Origin: Armatimonadota bacterium
Lineage (GTDB): Bacteria; Sysuimicrobiota; Sysuimicrobiia; Sysuimicrobiales; Humicultoraceae
Reading direction: 5' to 3'
Assembly (NCBI GenBank): GCA_031081585.1
Contig: JAVHLY010000005.1
Coordinates: 1-64,000, forward strand
Length of the DNA: 64,000 bases
Position numbers and translations under genes: made by a program. This document shows, in pieces, positions 7,019-13,039 of the stretch. Numbering within the stretch: the first letter of the stretch is position 1; every line of letters starts with the position of its first letter. Under the pieces are notes generated by a model that worked only from the letters and a program-made list of their open reading frames with translations, had not been told where the DNA came from and ran no database searches.

Positions 7019-8044
7019 TCAGGGCAGGGTCTCGAGGAGGGCGGCGGCGCCGGCGGCCGGCGAGGGCGTCACCAGCCCCACGGCCGGCACGGTGCGTAGG
7101 AGGCCGGCGAGGCCGGCAAAGGCGCGGGCGCGGTGGCGCGCCAGCTGCAGGGAGGAGGGCTGGCGGCTCAGCGCCAGGAAGACCGCGCCGGGTGAGAGCG
7201 ACCGCAGCCGCACCCGCCAGCCCCGTCCTTCCAGGAGGACCAACAGCGCCACAGGCACGCGCGTCTGCGCCCGGCGCGGCGGCAGGACGTAGGTGACGTC
7301 GTCGTCCCGGGCGACCACCTCACCGGAGGGCAGGGTCCCGAGAGCGCGCAACGTCCACGGTTTGATGGCGAGCGGCAGGGCGAAGGGGAAGGCGCACGGC
7401 GCTCCCTTGAACGGGCCACCGTCGTGCCGGCTCTGTACACGGTCCGGCGCCCGCACGCCGTCCGGCACCTGCACACTGGTCGGCACACTGTCCGGCAGGG
7501 GGAGCCAGGCCACCTCGTCGGAGAGGTAGGTCGCCCCCTGCGCCAGCAGCGCGGCCACCAGGCTGGTCTTCCCCGCCCCGCTCGGGCCGGCCAGCACCAC
7601 CGCCCGTCCGCGCACCGCCACCACGCCGGCGTGCAGGAAGAGACGGTCGGCCAAGTGGAGGGCGGTGGCGGTGCACTGCCCGAGCAGCACCGAGAGCGCT
7701 CGCGTCTCCGGCAGGCGGATGCGCCACAGGGCCTCTCCCCCGACGCGGCCGACGGCCCACCCGTCAGCGCCCAGCTCCACCTCGAGGGCAGGCAGGCGGA
7801 GCCCGCAGAGGTCCAGCGCGGCGAGCAGTGTCTGCAGCCGGGCTCCCCTCAAGCCCTGCGGTGAGCCCGGCGCCGCGTGCACCCGTACGGTCCAGCCGGT
7901 TTTGCGCCACCCGCTGCGAGACCCGGCCTCCGCAGGCGCGCCCGCAAGACCGGGCGCGCCCGAAAGAGCGGCCACGCCCTCCCGCTCGCCCTCGGAGCCC
8001 CGGGCCTCGTGCTGCGCCACACGCAGGCCCGCATGCGCGCTCAC
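7019..8044 (-). CDS. HPr-kinase/phosphorylase-like P-loop ATPase
   Basis: 341-aa P-loop protein of the HprK-like group found beside PqqD-like proteins in peptide-modifying and surface-polymer clusters. The Walker A box GPSGAGKTS is at residues 153-161 and an acidic LSDEVAW segment at 174-180, as in HprK-type kinases. A Pro/Asp/Val-rich low-complexity insert (repeated VPD/APD units, about 185-205) follows the acidic motif and is unusual. GTG 8044 begins 2 nt after the PqqD stop. No HPr (ptsH) or PTS gene is nearby, so classical carbon-catabolite control is unlikely; kinases of this shape phosphorylate lasso peptides in known clusters. The substrate here is unknown. Confidence 0.72.
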   Translation of the reverse strand: MSAHAGLRVAQHEARGSEGEREGVAALSGAPGLAGAPAEAGSRSGWRKTGWTVRVHAAPGSPQGLRGARLQTLLAALDLCGLRLPALEVELGADGWAVGRVGGEALWRIRLPETRALSVLLGQCTATALHLADRLFLHAGVVAVRGRAVVLAGPSGAGKTSLVAALLAQGATYLSDEVAWLPLPDSVPTSVQVPDGVRAPDRVQSRHDGGPFKGAPCAFPFALPLAIKPWTLRALGTLPSGEVVARDDDVTYVLPPRRAQTRVPVALLVLLEGRGWRVRLRSLSPGAVFLALSRQPSSLQLARHRARAFAGLAGLLRTVPAVGLVTPSPAAGAAALLETLP

Positions 8045-8046
8045 GC

Positions 8047-8379
8047 TCAGACCTCCACGCACACCCGCCGGCGCCACCCTGCGCCCTCGCGGGCCACGGC
8101 ACCTGCGCGCTCGAGGTCGCGCAGGATCCGGCGCACGCGGCCCACCCCCAGGCCCGCCGCCCGGGCCACCTCGTCGGTGGCCCGGCCGTCGCACGCGGTC
8201 CAGACGCTGGCGGCAGCGCCCGAGAGGACGACCAGCCGGCCGTCTTCCGGGTCGAAGAGGACGACTTCCGCGGCAAAGCGGGCGGCCTCCGTGGCAAAGC
8301 GGGCGGCCAGCCTGGGGCCCGAGTCGCCCGGCGCACTGGACGGAGCGGTTACGGGACCGCCGGTCACGGGGCCAGTCAC
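8047..8379 (-). CDS. PqqD-family peptide-binding protein
   Basis: Small (110 aa) PqqD-like protein, the fold used as recognition element or leader-peptide chaperone in many ribosomal-peptide pathways. The core VVLFDPEDGRLVVLSG followed by AAASVWTACDGRATDEVARA matches the family pattern of a short beta hairpin and a W-x2-C/L-D-G helix cap. A winged-helix-like tail (RRILRDLERAGAVARE) follows. The N-terminus is built of VTGPVTGGPVT repeats and two ARFA repeats, encoded by short DNA duplications. GTG 8379 is the first possible start in frame. The gene lies 10 nt after the sortase stop and 2 nt before the kinase-like gene, so the three are surely co-transcribed. Confidence 0.72.
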   Translation of the reverse strand: MTGPVTGGPVTAPSSAPGDSGPRLAARFATEAARFAAEVVLFDPEDGRLVVLSGAAASVWTACDGRATDEVARAAGLGVGRVRRILRDLERAGAVAREGAGWRRRVCVEV

Positions 8380-8389
8380 GCGACCGCGG

Positions 8390-9019
8390 TCACGGGGCCG
8401 CCACCTGGACGCGCTGCAGGTCGGCCAGCACCACGAGGCGGTAGGCGGCGCTGTAGGCCGGGGTACAGGTGACCAGGGCGAGGCGACGGCGGCCGGCCTC
8501 ACCGCGCAGGACCTCCACCGCGGTCGGGCGGACGGTGCGCTGCTCCGCCACGCGGTAGAGATAGCGCTGCCGCCCGTCCTCGAGCAGCACCTCGTCGCCG
8601 GGCCGCAGGGCGGGCAGGCGGAAGAAGGGCGCCCCATGCGTGGTGCGGTGACCGGCGATGCCGACCACACCGGCCTGGCCGGGCCGGGCCGTCCAGGAGA
8701 TGCGTCCCAGGCCGAAGCGGCGCAGGTGTTCGGGCCGGGCCCCTTCTGGGACGAAGCGGCGCAACCCCAGACGCGGGATGGTGAGGACGAGCCCTTCGGC
8801 CGGGCGCAGGGTGCCGGCAGCCGCCCTGCGATCCACCTGGGTCGTCCGTTCCTCCGCTACCGTCTGGCCGTCGGTCAGGGCGCGCTCCCACTCGGCCAGG
8901 GCCGCGGTCTGCGCCGCTTCGGCCCCCCGCCCCGTGTAGACCGACCAGAAGGCGGGTGCCGCCAGTAGCAGCCCGCCCACCACCATCAGGACAAGACCCA
9001 GCGTCCGCAGGGCGCTCAC
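8390..9019 (-). CDS. sortase (class D/E-like transpeptidase)
   Basis: Membrane-anchored cysteine transpeptidase of 209 aa. One N-terminal membrane segment (about residues 6-25, TLGLVLMVVGGLLLAAPAFW) precedes an extracytoplasmic catalytic domain. The catalytic triad is visible: His124 in GIAGHRTTHG, Cys185 in ALVTCTPAYS and Arg194 in SAAYRLVV. The TCTP spacing fits class D/E/F enzymes better than class A. GTG 9019 overlaps the stop of the upstream LPFGG protein as GTGA, so enzyme and candidate substrate are translationally coupled. Cleavage of LPFGG is inferred from this pairing. Confidence 0.9.
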   Translation of the reverse strand: MSALRTLGLVLMVVGGLLLAAPAFWSVYTGRGAEAAQTAALAEWERALTDGQTVAEERTTQVDRRAAAGTLRPAEGLVLTIPRLGLRRFVPEGARPEHLRRFGLGRISWTARPGQAGVVGIAGHRTTHGAPFFRLPALRPGDEVLLEDGRQRYLYRVAEQRTVRPTAVEVLRGEAGRRRLALVTCTPAYSAAYRLVVLADLQRVQVAAP

Positions 9020-9660
9020 CCCGCCCTGGCGTTCCGGCGGAGGAGGAGGTACCCCGTGCCCACCAGGCCCAGGCCCAGCGCCACCGGGATCCACAGGCGG
9101 GCGCCTCCGAAGGGAAGCACCGCCCCGGGCGGCGGGGCGGCGGGGGGTGGCGTGGCCACCGCCCGGACCGGTGGCGGCGCTGCAGCCGCAGGAGCAGGCG
9201 GTGCAGGCGCGGCAGGTGCGGGCGCCGGTGCGGGGGGGCCGAGGACGATCGGCGTGGGCCGGGGGCGCGCGGGCGGGCCGGGCGTCACAGCGGCAGCGGG
9301 CGGCGCCGGCGGCGCTGTGGGCGCCACGGTGGGCGGGAGGACACCTGGAGTCGGCGCCGGGGAAGGCGGAGGAGGCGACGGGGGCGCTTCGGCCGCGGGT
9401 GACGGTGTCGGGGCGGCCTCAGGGGGAGGCGTCGGGGTGACCTGGACCACCGGCGGAGGTGGCTGCTCCACCACCGGTGGAGCGCCGATGATCAGCAGGA
9501 TCAGCGGGATGAGGGGGATCAGGATGGCGCCGGGAGGCCCGCCGCCGGGGGGCGGTGCTGGCGGTGGAGGTGGTGGCGGTGGAGGGACGCGAGGAGAGAT
9601 CGACTCGACCCCTCCCGCGAGTGGGATGCTTGCCGAGCGAATCCCCCCTCGCCACCACAT
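9016..9660 (-). CDS. proline-rich surface protein with LPFGG sorting signal
   Basis: 214-aa low-complexity protein, mostly Pro, Ala and Val. A hydrophobic stretch (about residues 45-59, ILIPLIPLILLIIGA) probably acts as export signal or anchor although it lies unusually far from the N-terminus. The C-terminus has the three parts of a cell-wall sorting signal: LPFGG at 182-186, a hydrophobic segment (189-206) and a basic tail RRNARAG. LPFGG differs from canonical LPXTG at the fourth position. The ATG at 9660 has AGGGGG 7 nt upstream. The adjacent sortase is the likely processing enzyme. The Pro-rich part resembles a wall-spanning stalk, but no functional head domain is seen. Confidence 0.68.
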   Translation of the reverse strand: MWWRGGIRSASIPLAGGVESISPRVPPPPPPPPPAPPPGGGPPGAILIPLIPLILLIIGAPPVVEQPPPPVVQVTPTPPPEAAPTPSPAAEAPPSPPPPSPAPTPGVLPPTVAPTAPPAPPAAAVTPGPPARPRPTPIVLGPPAPAPAPAAPAPPAPAAAAPPPVRAVATPPPAAPPPGAVLPFGGARLWIPVALGLGLVGTGYLLLRRNARAG

Positions 9661-9767
9661 TGATGACCCCCTGGGTGTTCCTGGCGCCTTTCCAGTGTAT
9701 GGACGGCAGCACGCACCGCCTATCCGTCGAATGCAGGAGTACCATCGTGCAAACGACACAGGAGCCG

Positions 9768-9868
9768 TGGCGGCCGAGGGTGGTGGCGGCCGAGGGCGCG
9801 CAAGACCGGCGCGGGAACGGTGGCGGCCCGAGGGCGCAAGACCGGCGGGGAACAGCGGCGGCCGACGG
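9768..9868. repeat. imperfect 35-40 bp tandem repeats
   Basis: About two and a half copies of a unit containing gtggcggccgagggcgc and aagaccggcg, at roughly 9781-9820 and 9821-9855 with partial copies on either side. It fills the space between the divergent surface-protein and ABC genes and would be untranslated if the ABC ATPase starts at 9919. Confidence 0.75.
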
Positions 9869-9918
9869 CACGCACCGTAGACAGGAAGTCTCCGGTCCTC
9901 CCCGGTACTGAATGGGTC

Positions 9919-10704
9919 GTGGCGGCGGTCGAGACCTCCTCCCTGACCAAGCGCTTCCGCGGGCGCTGGCCGCTCGGGGCCCATCGCCCGGTGGACGCCC
10001 TGTGGGACGTGACCCTGCAGGTCGAGGCGGGAGAGATCTTCGGCCTGCTGGGTCCGAACGGCGCCGGCAAGACCACTCTGCTCAAGATCCTGACCACCCT
10101 CCTCCTCCCGTCCGGCGGCACGGCCCGCATCCTGGGCGCGGACGTGGTGCGGGAGCCGACGCTGGTGCGGCGGCGCGTGGCGCTGGTCACGGGGGACGAG
10201 CGCGCCTGTTACTGGCGGCTCTCCGGGCGGGACAACCTGATCTTCTTCGCGGGCCTGCTCGGCTGCGCGCCGGGTGAAGCGCGCCGGCGGGCCGAAGCGG
10301 CGCTCGGGCAGGTGGGACTCACCGAGGCGGCCGACCAGGTCGTGGCCCGGTACTCGACGGGGATGCGCCAGCGGCTCCTGCTCGCCCGGGCGCTCGTGGG
10401 CGGCCAGCCCGTCCTCTGCCTCGACGAGCCGACGCGCAGCCTCGACCCCCAGGCGGCTGACGCCTTCCGGGCGCTGGTACGCCACCTGGCCAGCACAGAG
10501 GGCCGCACCGTTCTGCTGGCGACGCACGACTTCGAGGAGGCGGCCGGCGTGTGCGACCGTGTGGGCATCCTCGCAGGCGGGCGCCTGCGCGAGGTGGTGG
10601 CCGTCGGGGAGGGTGGAGCGGCGCGCGTGCGGGCGTGCTACGAGGCGGCCGTGGAGGAGACGCGTGGCCCTGCTCTTCCAGTTGTGGGCGTTTCTCCGGC
10701 GTGA
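9919..10704 (+). CDS. ABC transporter ATP-binding protein (exporter type)
   Basis: 261-aa ATPase of the CcmA/DrrA-like family that drives export with ABC-2 permeases. Walker A is GPNGAGKTTLL, the signature is a variant YSTGMRQR in place of LSGGQ, Walker B is VLCLDEPT and the switch His is in LLATHDFEEA. GTG 9919 gives a normal N-terminus; longer forms would begin in the repeat region. The permease gene overlaps its 3' end by 41 nt. It lies divergent to the sortase/PqqD/kinase genes, and the spacer is likely to carry both promoters. The cargo is unknown; a modified peptide or glycan precursor would fit the neighbours. Confidence 0.85.
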   Translation: MAAVETSSLTKRFRGRWPLGAHRPVDALWDVTLQVEAGEIFGLLGPNGAGKTTLLKILTTLLLPSGGTARILGADVVREPTLVRRRVALVTGDERACYWRLSGRDNLIFFAGLLGCAPGEARRRAEAALGQVGLTEAADQVVARYSTGMRQRLLLARALVGGQPVLCLDEPTRSLDPQAADAFRALVRHLASTEGRTVLLATHDFEEAAGVCDRVGILAGGRLREVVAVGEGGAARVRACYEAAVEETRGPALPVVGVSPA

Positions 10705-11470
10705 CAGCATCGCCGCGGGGACGGCGCGCCTGGCGCCGGCCTGGCAGGCCGCGGGCGTGGGGTTCACCGCCGCCACCCTCTACTACCTGGGACGCCTGGT
10801 CCCCGCACCGGATCCGGCATCGGGGCGCCCGGCGGGCTACTTCGCCTTCGCGCTCGTCGGCGTGGCCTTCTTCGGCTTCCTCACCGCGGTGATGCGCGCC
10901 TGCCCGGCCGCGCTGCGCCAGGAGCAGGTGGCCGGCACGCTGGAGAGCCTGGCCGCCACGCCCTGTGCAGTGGGGACGCTGGCGCTGGGCCTGTCGCTGT
11001 GGCCGGTCCTGCTGGGCCTCGGGCAGGCGGCCCTCTCCCTGTGGGTGGGGGAGGTCTTCTTCGGCCTGCCGATCGCTCGAGCCAACCTGGCCGCCGCCCT
11101 CGTGGTCCTGGGGCTCTCGGGGGCGACCTTCCTGGCCGTGGGCTGGCTCGCCGCAGCCTACGTCCTCCTCACCCGCCAGCCCGATCCGCTGACCGCGCCG
11201 ATCGCCGCCGCCTCGGCGTTGGTGGGCGGCCTCTTCTATCCCACCACCGTCCTCCCGGCACCCCTGCAGCGGCTGGGGGAGTGGCTGCCGATGACCCACG
11301 CGCTGCGCGCCATGCGGCTCGTCCTGCTGGAGGGGACAGGGGCGGCCGGCCTGCGCGGCGAGGTGCTCGTCCTGGCCGCCTTTGCCGCCGCGCTCGTCCC
11401 GCTGGGCTTGCTCGCCCTGCACTGGAGCTTTGCGGAGGCCCGGCGGTCCGGCACGCTCAGCGCCTATTGA
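10664..11470 (+). CDS. ABC-2 type transporter permease
   Basis: 268-aa integral membrane protein with about six hydrophobic segments and the arrangement of ABC-2 permeases, including the conserved late region FYPTTVLPAPLQRLGEWLPMTH that resembles the family's PxxxLP...PL motif. GTG 10664 follows GGAGGAG and lies inside the 3' end of the ATPase gene, implying translational coupling to it. Together they should form an exporter (2 ATPase + 2 permease). The next gene starts within the TTGA/ATG region at its stop. Confidence 0.8.
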   Translation: MALLFQLWAFLRRDSIAAGTARLAPAWQAAGVGFTAATLYYLGRLVPAPDPASGRPAGYFAFALVGVAFFGFLTAVMRACPAALRQEQVAGTLESLAATPCAVGTLALGLSLWPVLLGLGQAALSLWVGEVFFGLPIARANLAAALVVLGLSGATFLAVGWLAAAYVLLTRQPDPLTAPIAAASALVGGLFYPTTVLPAPLQRLGEWLPMTHALRAMRLVLLEGTGAAGLRGEVLVLAAFAAALVPLGLLALHWSFAEARRSGTLSAY

Positions 11471-11499
11471 GCACGGCGCCGTGGCCGCGTCCGGCCCTG

Positions 11500-12612
11500 A
11501 TGCCGCCGCGCCTCTACCCGTTCGAGCGGACCTTCCTCCGGCTGCTGCACCTCGAGCCCCTCCCGCCGGACCTCCCCACCGACTGGGACGCCGTGCATCG
11601 CCTGGCGAGGCGGGAACAGGTCATCCCGCTGCTCTGGGACGGCATCCGGCGGGCCGGGGTGACCGTGCCCGGGCCGGTGGCGCGCGAGCTGGCCTCCGCG
11701 TCCGAGCGGGCCGCGCAGCGGGCGGTCCGGGTGGAGATGGAGCTGGCCGCGGTGCTCTCGGCCCTGAACCGTGAAGGGGTCCGCCCGCTCCTGCTGAAGG
11801 GCGCGGCGCTGGCGCGGGCAACCTACCCCGATCCCGCGCTGCGCCCCATGCACGACCTGGACCTCCTCGTCGCCCCGGAGACGGTCAACGCCGCGCACCG
11901 GGCGCTCTGCGCGCTGGGCTACCGCATCGCCGGCGGAGCCCCCAGCGCGGCCGACCGCACTTGGCGTAGCGCCCGCGGGTACATGCCGCCGTCAGGCCTG
12001 ACCCTGCCGGTGGACCTGCACTGGCGCTATGCCGGCTACCCGCACCTCCTGCCGCTCGACCACGACGCCGTGGCCTGCCGGGCGAGACCGGTAGACGTGG
12101 CCGGCGCCCAGGCCCTCCTCCCCGCGCCCGCCGACCTGATCGTGGGGCTGGCCGTCTTCTGGATGCGCGAGCTGTGGTACGGCCGCCCCCGCGCCCGCTA
12201 CATCCGCGACATCGCCGAAGTGGCGGCGCGCGGCGGCGTGGACTGGACCTTCGCCGGTGCCGTCTGCGTGGAGGCGCGCCGCACCGTCCAGGTGGCGGTG
12301 GCGCTGGCGGCCGACCTGTTCGGCGCACCGGTGCCGGCAGAGGCCCTGGCGGTGCTGGAGGGGGGACGGTGGCCCTATCTGGCGCGCCGCCTGACCGCCC
12401 GCCTGCAGGCCCGCCTCCTGCGGGAGGAGGCTGCCCTCAGCGCTATCGTGCAGGTGGGGCTCCTGCGGTGGCTGGGAGGAGAGGCCCCTGCGGACTTCCT
12501 GCGGTGGGTGGACCGGCTGGTGTGGATCCCCCAGCCGCTCGCCGCAGGACGCCGCCGCTGGCTCCGTCGGCTGTGGGGGGCCGTTACTTCAGGTACTCCG
12601 CGGCCACCTTGA
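11500..12612 (+). CDS. PF14907-type nucleotidyltransferase family protein
   Basis: 370-aa protein of the uncharacterised nucleotidyltransferase family (NTP_transf_5-like). The hallmark is LLLKGAALARATYP followed by LRPMHDLDLLV, the metal-binding D-x-D on the second strand of the pol-beta-like fold. Further conserved points are LHWRY and the helical C-terminal half with WMRELWYGRPRARYIRDIAEVA. In other genomes this family recurs beside PqqD-like and HprK-like genes; the reaction is not known. The ATG at 11500 is used; a TTG at 11467 overlapping the permease stop would add 11 residues. The 3' end overlaps the convergent next gene by 29 bp. Confidence 0.75.
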   Translation: MPPRLYPFERTFLRLLHLEPLPPDLPTDWDAVHRLARREQVIPLLWDGIRRAGVTVPGPVARELASASERAAQRAVRVEMELAAVLSALNREGVRPLLLKGAALARATYPDPALRPMHDLDLLVAPETVNAAHRALCALGYRIAGGAPSAADRTWRSARGYMPPSGLTLPVDLHWRYAGYPHLLPLDHDAVACRARPVDVAGAQALLPAPADLIVGLAVFWMRELWYGRPRARYIRDIAEVAARGGVDWTFAGAVCVEARRTVQVAVALAADLFGAPVPAEALAVLEGGRWPYLARRLTARLQARLLREEAALSAIVQVGLLRWLGGEAPADFLRWVDRLVWIPQPLAAGRRRWLRRLWGAVTSGTPRPP

Positions 12613-13039
12613 GCAGAGCGCTGACGCCCGCCGCTGCGGCCCGCGCCGTGGCCAGGTCGCGGGTCTTGACCCCGGTGACAGCCAGGCCGTCGGCGTGCTC
12701 CACCAGCGGGCGCACGGCCGCACCGCCGGAGACCCCCCGGAGGTCGTTGAGGATGCCGTTCCCCTGCCCCTCGCAGACGTGCCCCCAGGCCGCGTTGAAG
12801 TTCCGCCCGCCCTTGCCCTCGATGCAGTTGAGGGCATGGCCCAGGTGCTGCTGCACGTAGGCCAGCGACTGCCCGCCGGCGGCGAACCCGGAGTGGGTGG
12901 CCGCCGTCTGGATCTGCTGCTTCACCCCCGCGGCAGGCGCGGCGGGGGTCTGCTGCTGGTAGTTGTATTCCGGATAGCCCACGCCGGCCAGCCCCAGGAG
13001 CAGCAGGCCGACCACACCGAGCACGGTGACGAAGCGCAT
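12584..13039 (-). CDS. exported protein of unknown function
   Basis: 151-aa protein with an N-terminal signal sequence (RFVTVLGVVGLLLLGLAGVG, cleavage probably before YPEYN) and no other membrane segment. The mature part has two Cys residues (in LNCIEGKGG and GHVCEGQG) that could form a disulfide, and several His near them (HLGHALNC, WGHVC), suggestive of a helical small-ligand or metal-binding protein, but I do not recognise the family. The ATG at 13039 has GGAGG plus GAGG upstream. It overlaps the convergent nucleotidyltransferase gene and lies 80 bp from rsmE, so it is probably a separate unit. Confidence 0.6.
   Translation of the reverse strand: MRFVTVLGVVGLLLLGLAGVGYPEYNYQQQTPAAPAAGVKQQIQTAATHSGFAAGGQSLAYVQQHLGHALNCIEGKGGRNFNAAWGHVCEGQGNGILNDLRGVSGGAAVRPLVEHADGLAVTGVKTRDLATARAAAAGVSALLKVAAEYLK

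Follow-up and report, generated by a model that had tools for sequence, protein, structure and literature searches.

The closest described relatives of the locus treated here are found among the ribosomally synthesized and post-translationally modified peptides (RiPPs). In the family of linear polyphosphorylated peptides (LPP), the gene clusters encode a RiPP recognition element (RRE), an HprK kinase, a nucleoside triphosphate (NTP) transferase, an exporter, and a signal-peptidase-like protein, together with one to three precursors that have a conserved N terminus and variable C termini (Popov et al. 2026, PMC13381572). Ser3 of the core is the residue that the LPP kinase phosphorylates, and a Ser also closes the conserved motif of the precursors (PMC13381572). 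In the biosynthesis of the lasso peptide pseudomycoidin, PsmK and PsmN phosphorylate and then hexosylate a Ser, and lasso kinases require a His-Lys-Asp-Asp set of residues (PMC9266682). The paeninodin-type lasso and LPP families are described as having no known biological role, although both are often found in capsule loci (PMC13381572). Here, we describe an island of seven genes in which an RRE-like protein, an HprK-like kinase, and a PF14907 nucleotidyltransferase stand beside a sortase and a Pro-rich protein with a sorting signal. The island lies in a 64,000-nucleotide stretch of DNA from an Armatimonadota bacterium (contig JAVHLY010000005.1, positions 1 to 64,000), which is referred to below as the window.

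An earlier note on this DNA had listed a surface protein, a sortase, PqqD-like and HprK-like proteins, an ABC (ATP-binding cassette) ATPase and permease, and a PF14907 nucleotidyltransferase. An open reading frame (ORF) check and family profile searches of the window recover all seven genes in the same places, with the same overlap and gaps (Table 1). The genes for the substrate, the sortase, the PqqD/RRE-like protein, and the HprK-like kinase constitute one tight minus-strand operon, and the ABC pair and the nucleotidyltransferase run divergently from it. Rfam and tRNA scans returned no match inside the island.

Similar to the LPP clusters (PMC13381572), the island encodes a discrete RRE, an HprK-like kinase, an NTP transferase, and an exporter, and has no macrolactam cyclase; in both, the N terminus of the precursor is conserved and ends in Ser, and the C termini are variable. 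The RRE, the HprK-like kinase, and the NTP transferase occur in one cluster in the window, and the last of these is absent from two of the 11 islands described below. The main differences are that LPP has a SipW-like signal peptidase where the island has a sortase, that the LPP exporter is MsbA-like whereas the island has a separate DrrA-like ATPase and ABC-2 permease, and that the LPP leader, YxxPxVLxHQxIxFETxxS, shares its terminal Ser with the island motif, G[VIL]xxxx[IL]x[LF]...S, which is devoid of the Tyr and the His-Gln. In addition, LPP has been reported from Bacillota, and the sortase island is found in another lineage and with an LPxTG protein. The island would work like LPP yet is not a member of that family, because the signal peptidase, the MsbA-like exporter, and the Tyr-containing leader were tested for and are absent. 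Among the papers searched, none was found to link a sortase with PqqD or an RRE in a single pathway. According to the earlier note, no described pathway is known to join these enzymes to a dedicated sortase; the enzyme set itself, without a lasso cyclase, has already been described as LPP (PMC13381572). Since LPP already covers that enzyme set, the new part is the sortase and its LPxTG substrate.

The island also resembles the clusters for phosphorylated and glycosylated lasso peptides (paeninodin, with PadeK, and pseudomycoidin, with PsmK and PsmN) in having an RRE (B1), an HprK-like kinase with the His-Lys-Asp residues, and a nucleotidyltransferase. The Ser targeted by the paeninodin and pseudomycoidin kinases is C-terminal, whereas the proposed target in the island is N-terminal. 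Lasso clusters further contain an Asn-synthase-like cyclase and a B2 transglutaminase-like protease; neither is encoded among the window's island genes, and identity with a lasso cluster was rejected for this reason. A lasso-type cluster does occur in the same order (L018, in genome G013), comprising PF14907, an ABC pair, PqqD, Asn synthase, an HprK-like protein, and Transglut_core3 (B2). This cluster has PF14907, the ABC ATPase, the ABC permease, PqqD, and the HprK-like kinase in common with the island, and the ABC ATPases of the two are 46–47% identical. L018 has Asn synthase and Transglut_core3 and no sortase, and the island is the reverse. Among the lasso-like loci of the order, a regular expression for the classical lasso leader retrieved one plausible precursor, YKPPELMELGSIARHTFA in G004 (L035:4640, minus strand), and none that is convincing elsewhere. 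PqqD, HprK-like, and PF14907 genes are also observed beside glycosyltransferase-like genes, without a sortase, at L013, L024, and L025, in genomes that carry the sortase island as well.

In the 43 genomes of the order that were surveyed, a sortase is present in 13, and 11 of these 13 contain the island, with substrate, sortase, RRE, and kinase together (G000, G001, G007, G016, G020, G022, G025, G031, G034, G036, and G038); the RRE of G022 (locus L004) is degenerate. A single order of about 43 species, a high G+C content, and small genomes point to Sysuimicrobiota (CSP1-3; PMC11604079) as the likely lineage. The ABC pair is found in 10 of the 11 islands, a count that includes pairs only beginning at a contig end. 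The nucleotidyltransferase is found in eight, one of which is cut by a contig end; it is absent from the G001 and G020 islands and undecidable in G016. The PF14907 gene is located ~3 kb from the sortase gene, divergent in G000, G007, G022, G025, G034, and G036 and collinear in G031. In the fragmented genome G005, the contig that carries the kinase gene ends just upstream of it, and the two ABC genes, the nucleotidyltransferase gene, and a CAP-domain gene follow one another on a second contig.

A profile of the island kinase, searched against a wider set of 386 sampled genomes, retrieves one clade in 12 genomes at E < 1e-90 (the 11 islands and G005), with the next best match at 2e-17. In a scan of named genomes, the matches listed for the kinase profile were two short P-loop hits, which are uninformative. 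The kinase clade, the N-terminal motif of the substrate, and the sorting signal select the same 11 genomes, to which the kinase adds G005. The flanking genes vary by group: argC and rsmE flank the island in the window, common flanks are shared within G001/G005/G007 and within G025/G034/G036, and others are seen elsewhere. Because the flanks differ between groups, the island is kept as a unit in changing surroundings, its gene order being retained in several chromosomal contexts. The pairwise gene distances of the island genes correlate (Mantel r 0.82–0.96), which is consistent with co-inheritance.

All 11 substrates adopt a tripartite organization: an N-terminal motif; a middle part in which a linker of Pro and Gly leads to a hydrophobic segment and a stalk rich in Pro and Ala; and a C-terminal part made up of LP[FY][TG]G, another hydrophobic segment, and Arg residues. 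In the window protein, the order is the motif, the Pro/Gly linker, the first hydrophobic segment (TM1), the Pro-rich stalk, LPFGG, the second hydrophobic segment (TM2), and an Arg-containing end, and homologues sit upstream of the sortase at 10 other loci. The motif follows the pattern G-[VIL]-x-x-x-x-[IL]-x-[LF] ... S-P, the Ser at its end being invariant, as exemplified by RGGVTVQPIPFDLGVVSSFSP and RGVRIASIPLAQGVTTFSP; in an alignment of 13 sequences, Gly6 and Ser22 (window numbering) are, besides Met1, invariant in 13 of 13 proteins. In G001 and G007, a second short protein (ORF-A) contains the same N-terminal motif and a hydrophobic segment, without LPxTG. When two proteins of one cluster that otherwise differ have a motif in common, that motif behaves as a recognition leader would, and the N terminus of the substrate does look like that of a RiPP precursor. 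The conserved leader-like motif with its invariant Ser lends indirect support to the suggestion of the earlier note that the Pro-rich protein itself is recognized; that this protein is modified and anchored, we infer.

Profile searches of the order with the motif match only the islands (E < 1e-10, next best 0.017), and the sorting signal is found once per genome, in the island substrate (E < 1e-14, next 3e-5); for both profiles, matches to the training loci are by construction, and the informative part is that nothing else matches. As both profiles are confined to the islands, each island sortase appears to have only one substrate. The window substrate fits the pattern of a sortase substrate, with an LPxTG-like motif, a hydrophobic segment, and a basic tail; the motif itself is LPFGG in the window and LPFTG in most relatives. 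In the sortase, His124, Cys185, and Arg194 are invariant across the islands. The nearest solved structure is that of SrtE1 (5cuw, E 1e-21), and the best family is class E sortase NF033747, at 114 bits, under the curated cut-off of 160. The sequence, the catalytic His/Cys/Arg, and the C-terminal sorting signal are thus like those of class E sortases paired with LAxTG/LPxTG proteins; unlike those systems, the island has one dedicated substrate and RRE and kinase genes in the same operon. Substrates of the window family (window, L001, L007) contain LPxGG, as compared with LPxTG in the other islands, which suggests a joint change in the specificity of the sortase and in its only substrate. Three genomes, G006, G028, and G031, contain another, divergent sortase lineage (L009:9409-10107, L011:460-1158, and L017:3888-4607); no RRE or island-kinase neighbors were found for these sortases, and that of G006 is located ~1 kb from a CAP gene.

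The window PqqD-like protein matches PF05402 with 28.7 bits against a cut-off of 23.4, and the proteins of some relatives fall below this cut-off. The best solved match of the RRE profile is the lasso RRE TbiB1 (E 1e-4), and the structural model (predicted local distance difference test, pLDDT, 83) contains an N-terminal β hairpin and a winged helix. In the kinase, His138, the P-loop Lys159, and Asp176 are invariant, as in lasso kinases, and the model (pLDDT 88) matches the PEPCK/HprK fold. The kinase scores 45.9 bits against TIGR04352 (HprK-related kinase A), for which the cut-off is 200; by sequence, it is assigned to the same superfamily and to another subfamily. A search of the PDB with the nucleotidyltransferase profile gave no match.

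Table 1. Coordinates of the island and its features in the window, and of CAP-domain genes at related loci
Feature	Position	Strand	Remarks
Sortase substrate, Pro-rich LPFGG protein	9016-9660	-	214 aa, 34% Pro, ATG 9660
N-terminal leader-like motif, residues 6-23	9592-9645	-	GIRSASIPLAGGVESISP; Ser22 codon 9597-9595
First hydrophobic segment TM1, residues 44-60	9481-9531	-	signal anchor or signal peptide
C-terminal sorting signal, LPFGG (residues 182-186) and TM2	9040-9117	-	
Class-E-like sortase	8390-9019	-	GTG overlaps substrate TGA as GTGA; PF04203 E 3e-28
PqqD/RRE-like protein	8047-8379	-	10-nt gap after sortase; PF05402 E 2e-6
HprK-like kinase	7019-8044	-	2-nt gap after PqqD-like gene; TIGR04352 E 4e-12, below curated cut-off
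Spacer between divergent gene sets	9661-9918	none	
ABC exporter ATPase, DrrA-like	9919-10704	+	ABC_tran match
ABC-2 permease, DrrB-like	10664-11470	+	ABC2_membrane match
PF14907 nucleotidyltransferase (NTP_transf_5)	11500-12612	+	E 5e-44; LLKGAAL...DLDLL motifs
CAP-domain genes beside island	L001:13330-13863, L002:13082-13666, L003:7432-8007, L016:7811-8338, and others		

We consider it probable, if only moderately so, that the island serves to produce a modified surface protein and attach it to the envelope by means of the RRE, the kinase, the nucleotidyltransferase where present, and the sortase. In the cytoplasm, the PqqD-like RRE would bind the freshly synthesized Pro-rich protein at its conserved N-terminal segment, which would be exposed before the first hydrophobic segment. 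The HprK-like kinase would then phosphorylate or polyphosphorylate the invariant Ser at the end of this segment (Ser22 in the window), and the PF14907 enzyme, where present, may extend the phospho-Ser by a hexose or a nucleotidyl unit, in the manner of PsmN in pseudomycoidin biosynthesis. The ABC pair, the Sec machinery, or both would move or flip the protein across the membrane, where the dedicated sortase would cut LP[FY][TG]G and join the protein to the envelope. Such a scheme requires the early steps to take place in the cytoplasm and the last one outside the cell, in agreement with a motif that precedes TM1 and a sorting signal at the opposite end of the protein. The second motif protein without LPxTG in two islands is what one would expect if several precursors had a recognition element in common. 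Tentatively, the island may be viewed as a RiPP-like pathway that yields a full-length, covalently anchored surface protein, in which a dedicated sortase substrate has one N-terminal Ser to which the RRE recruits the kinase and a nucleotidyl- or glycosyltransferase, the product being a phosphorylated or phosphoglycosylated wall protein.

Several observations weigh against a modified and anchored surface protein. Foldseek searches with the RRE model return only generic winged-helix proteins and do not distinguish it from DNA-binding winged helices; the RRE is degenerate in several loci; and the N-terminal motif contains neither the Tyr nor the Trp of [Y/W]xxP, the motif to which RREs classically bind. 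At the fourth position of the kinase's His-Lys-Asp-Asp set, which directly follows the conserved Asp, three loci have Asp and all others have Glu. Family searches recognized no leader peptidase among the window's island genes, and likewise no signal peptidase of the SipW or archaeal type. The ABC pair and the nucleotidyltransferase, which the earlier note counted as parts of the island, are present in the window but are not universal: the G001 island is without the nucleotidyltransferase and the G020 island without both, so that the final modification may differ there. The correlated gene distances, finally, are also expected from plain vertical descent.

The tailoring enzymes could instead act on another small peptide, with the LPxTG protein only a nearby anchored scaffold or display partner. 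ORF-A is a separate short protein with the motif in two islands, and LPP clusters can hold several precursors (PMC13381572). The motif of ORF-A is, however, the same as that of the LPxTG protein, so both would be substrates, and in nine of the 11 islands the LPxTG protein is the only motif carrier; we regard this explanation as unlikely. It is slightly less likely still that the winged helix-turn-helix (HTH) protein and the HprK-like protein form a regulatory pair, a DNA-binding repressor and a sensor kinase, over the sortase-substrate operon, with the motif as an extended signal peptide of the YSIRK type. The sequence profile finds the lasso RRE first and the RRE-type N-terminal β hairpin is kept, although the winged-helix model matches transcription regulators in Foldseek and some members of the family match HTH families besides PqqD. 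Furthermore, the nucleotidyltransferase and the ABC pair resemble the lasso cluster of the same order, and the motif is limited to one or two proteins per genome, which is not the pattern of a general signal peptide motif.

The motif and TM1 could also be cut off by a signal peptidase as a separate modified membrane or exported peptide, with the sortase anchoring the Pro-rich remainder, such that one gene would give two products. Some members have small residues behind TM1 (ASA or AHA, then P), and ORF-A extends only a little beyond TM1. In most members, however, Pro stands just after the likely cut, a position at which signal peptidase I disfavors this residue, and no dedicated peptidase is recognized in the island, which leaves this explanation just as doubtful as a regulatory pair. 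The chance neighborhood of a lasso-type remnant and a sortase operon is very improbable. The nucleotidyltransferase and the ABC pair are missing from some islands, but the same core is found in eleven genomes, with strict co-occurrence of motif, sorting signal, sortase, and kinase. For the substrate-sortase-RRE-kinase core, chance was ruled out by the neighborhood survey of the order: the earlier note had reasoned that a chance arrangement would leave the PqqD-like protein, kinase, and nucleotidyltransferase mostly without a sortase in relatives, and the kinase clade adjoins a sortase in 11 of 11 genomes in which the contig continues.

In nine of 12 genomes, a gene for a secreted CAP-domain protein (PF00188) adjoins the island, usually convergent to the nucleotidyltransferase gene. 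The window island is without an adjoining CAP gene, and one CAP gene is found on another contig of the same genome (G000:C27). The place of the CAP gene in relatives is occupied in the window by a gene for a small protein (12584-13039, minus strand), which has an N-terminal hydrophobic segment and no Pfam match and overlaps the 3′ end of the nucleotidyltransferase gene. Outside the order, a locus of G373 (L023:2446-11873) encodes, on one strand, PqqD, a radical SAM protein, an HprK-like protein, an S24-like peptidase, a C25 peptidase, a sortase, and a Thr/Pro-rich protein that ends in IPATG and a hydrophobic tail. This locus is an independent case of an RRE and an HprK-like protein near a sortase that differs from the island in composition and lacks the N-terminal motif.

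The tailoring enzymes of RiPP pathways are known for acting on small peptides; in the island, the same enzymes are linked to a single sortase and a single surface protein. Phosphate and sugar tailoring enzymes beside a dedicated sortase and a single substrate suggest a novel route by which a surface protein is chemically modified and anchored. For the HprK/PF14907 machinery, the island offers a full-length substrate that can be identified, Ser22 as the predicted acceptor, and a prediction of where the product ends up, which makes the role of this tailoring directly testable. A novel kind of modified cell-surface protein could thereby come to light in this uncultured lineage.

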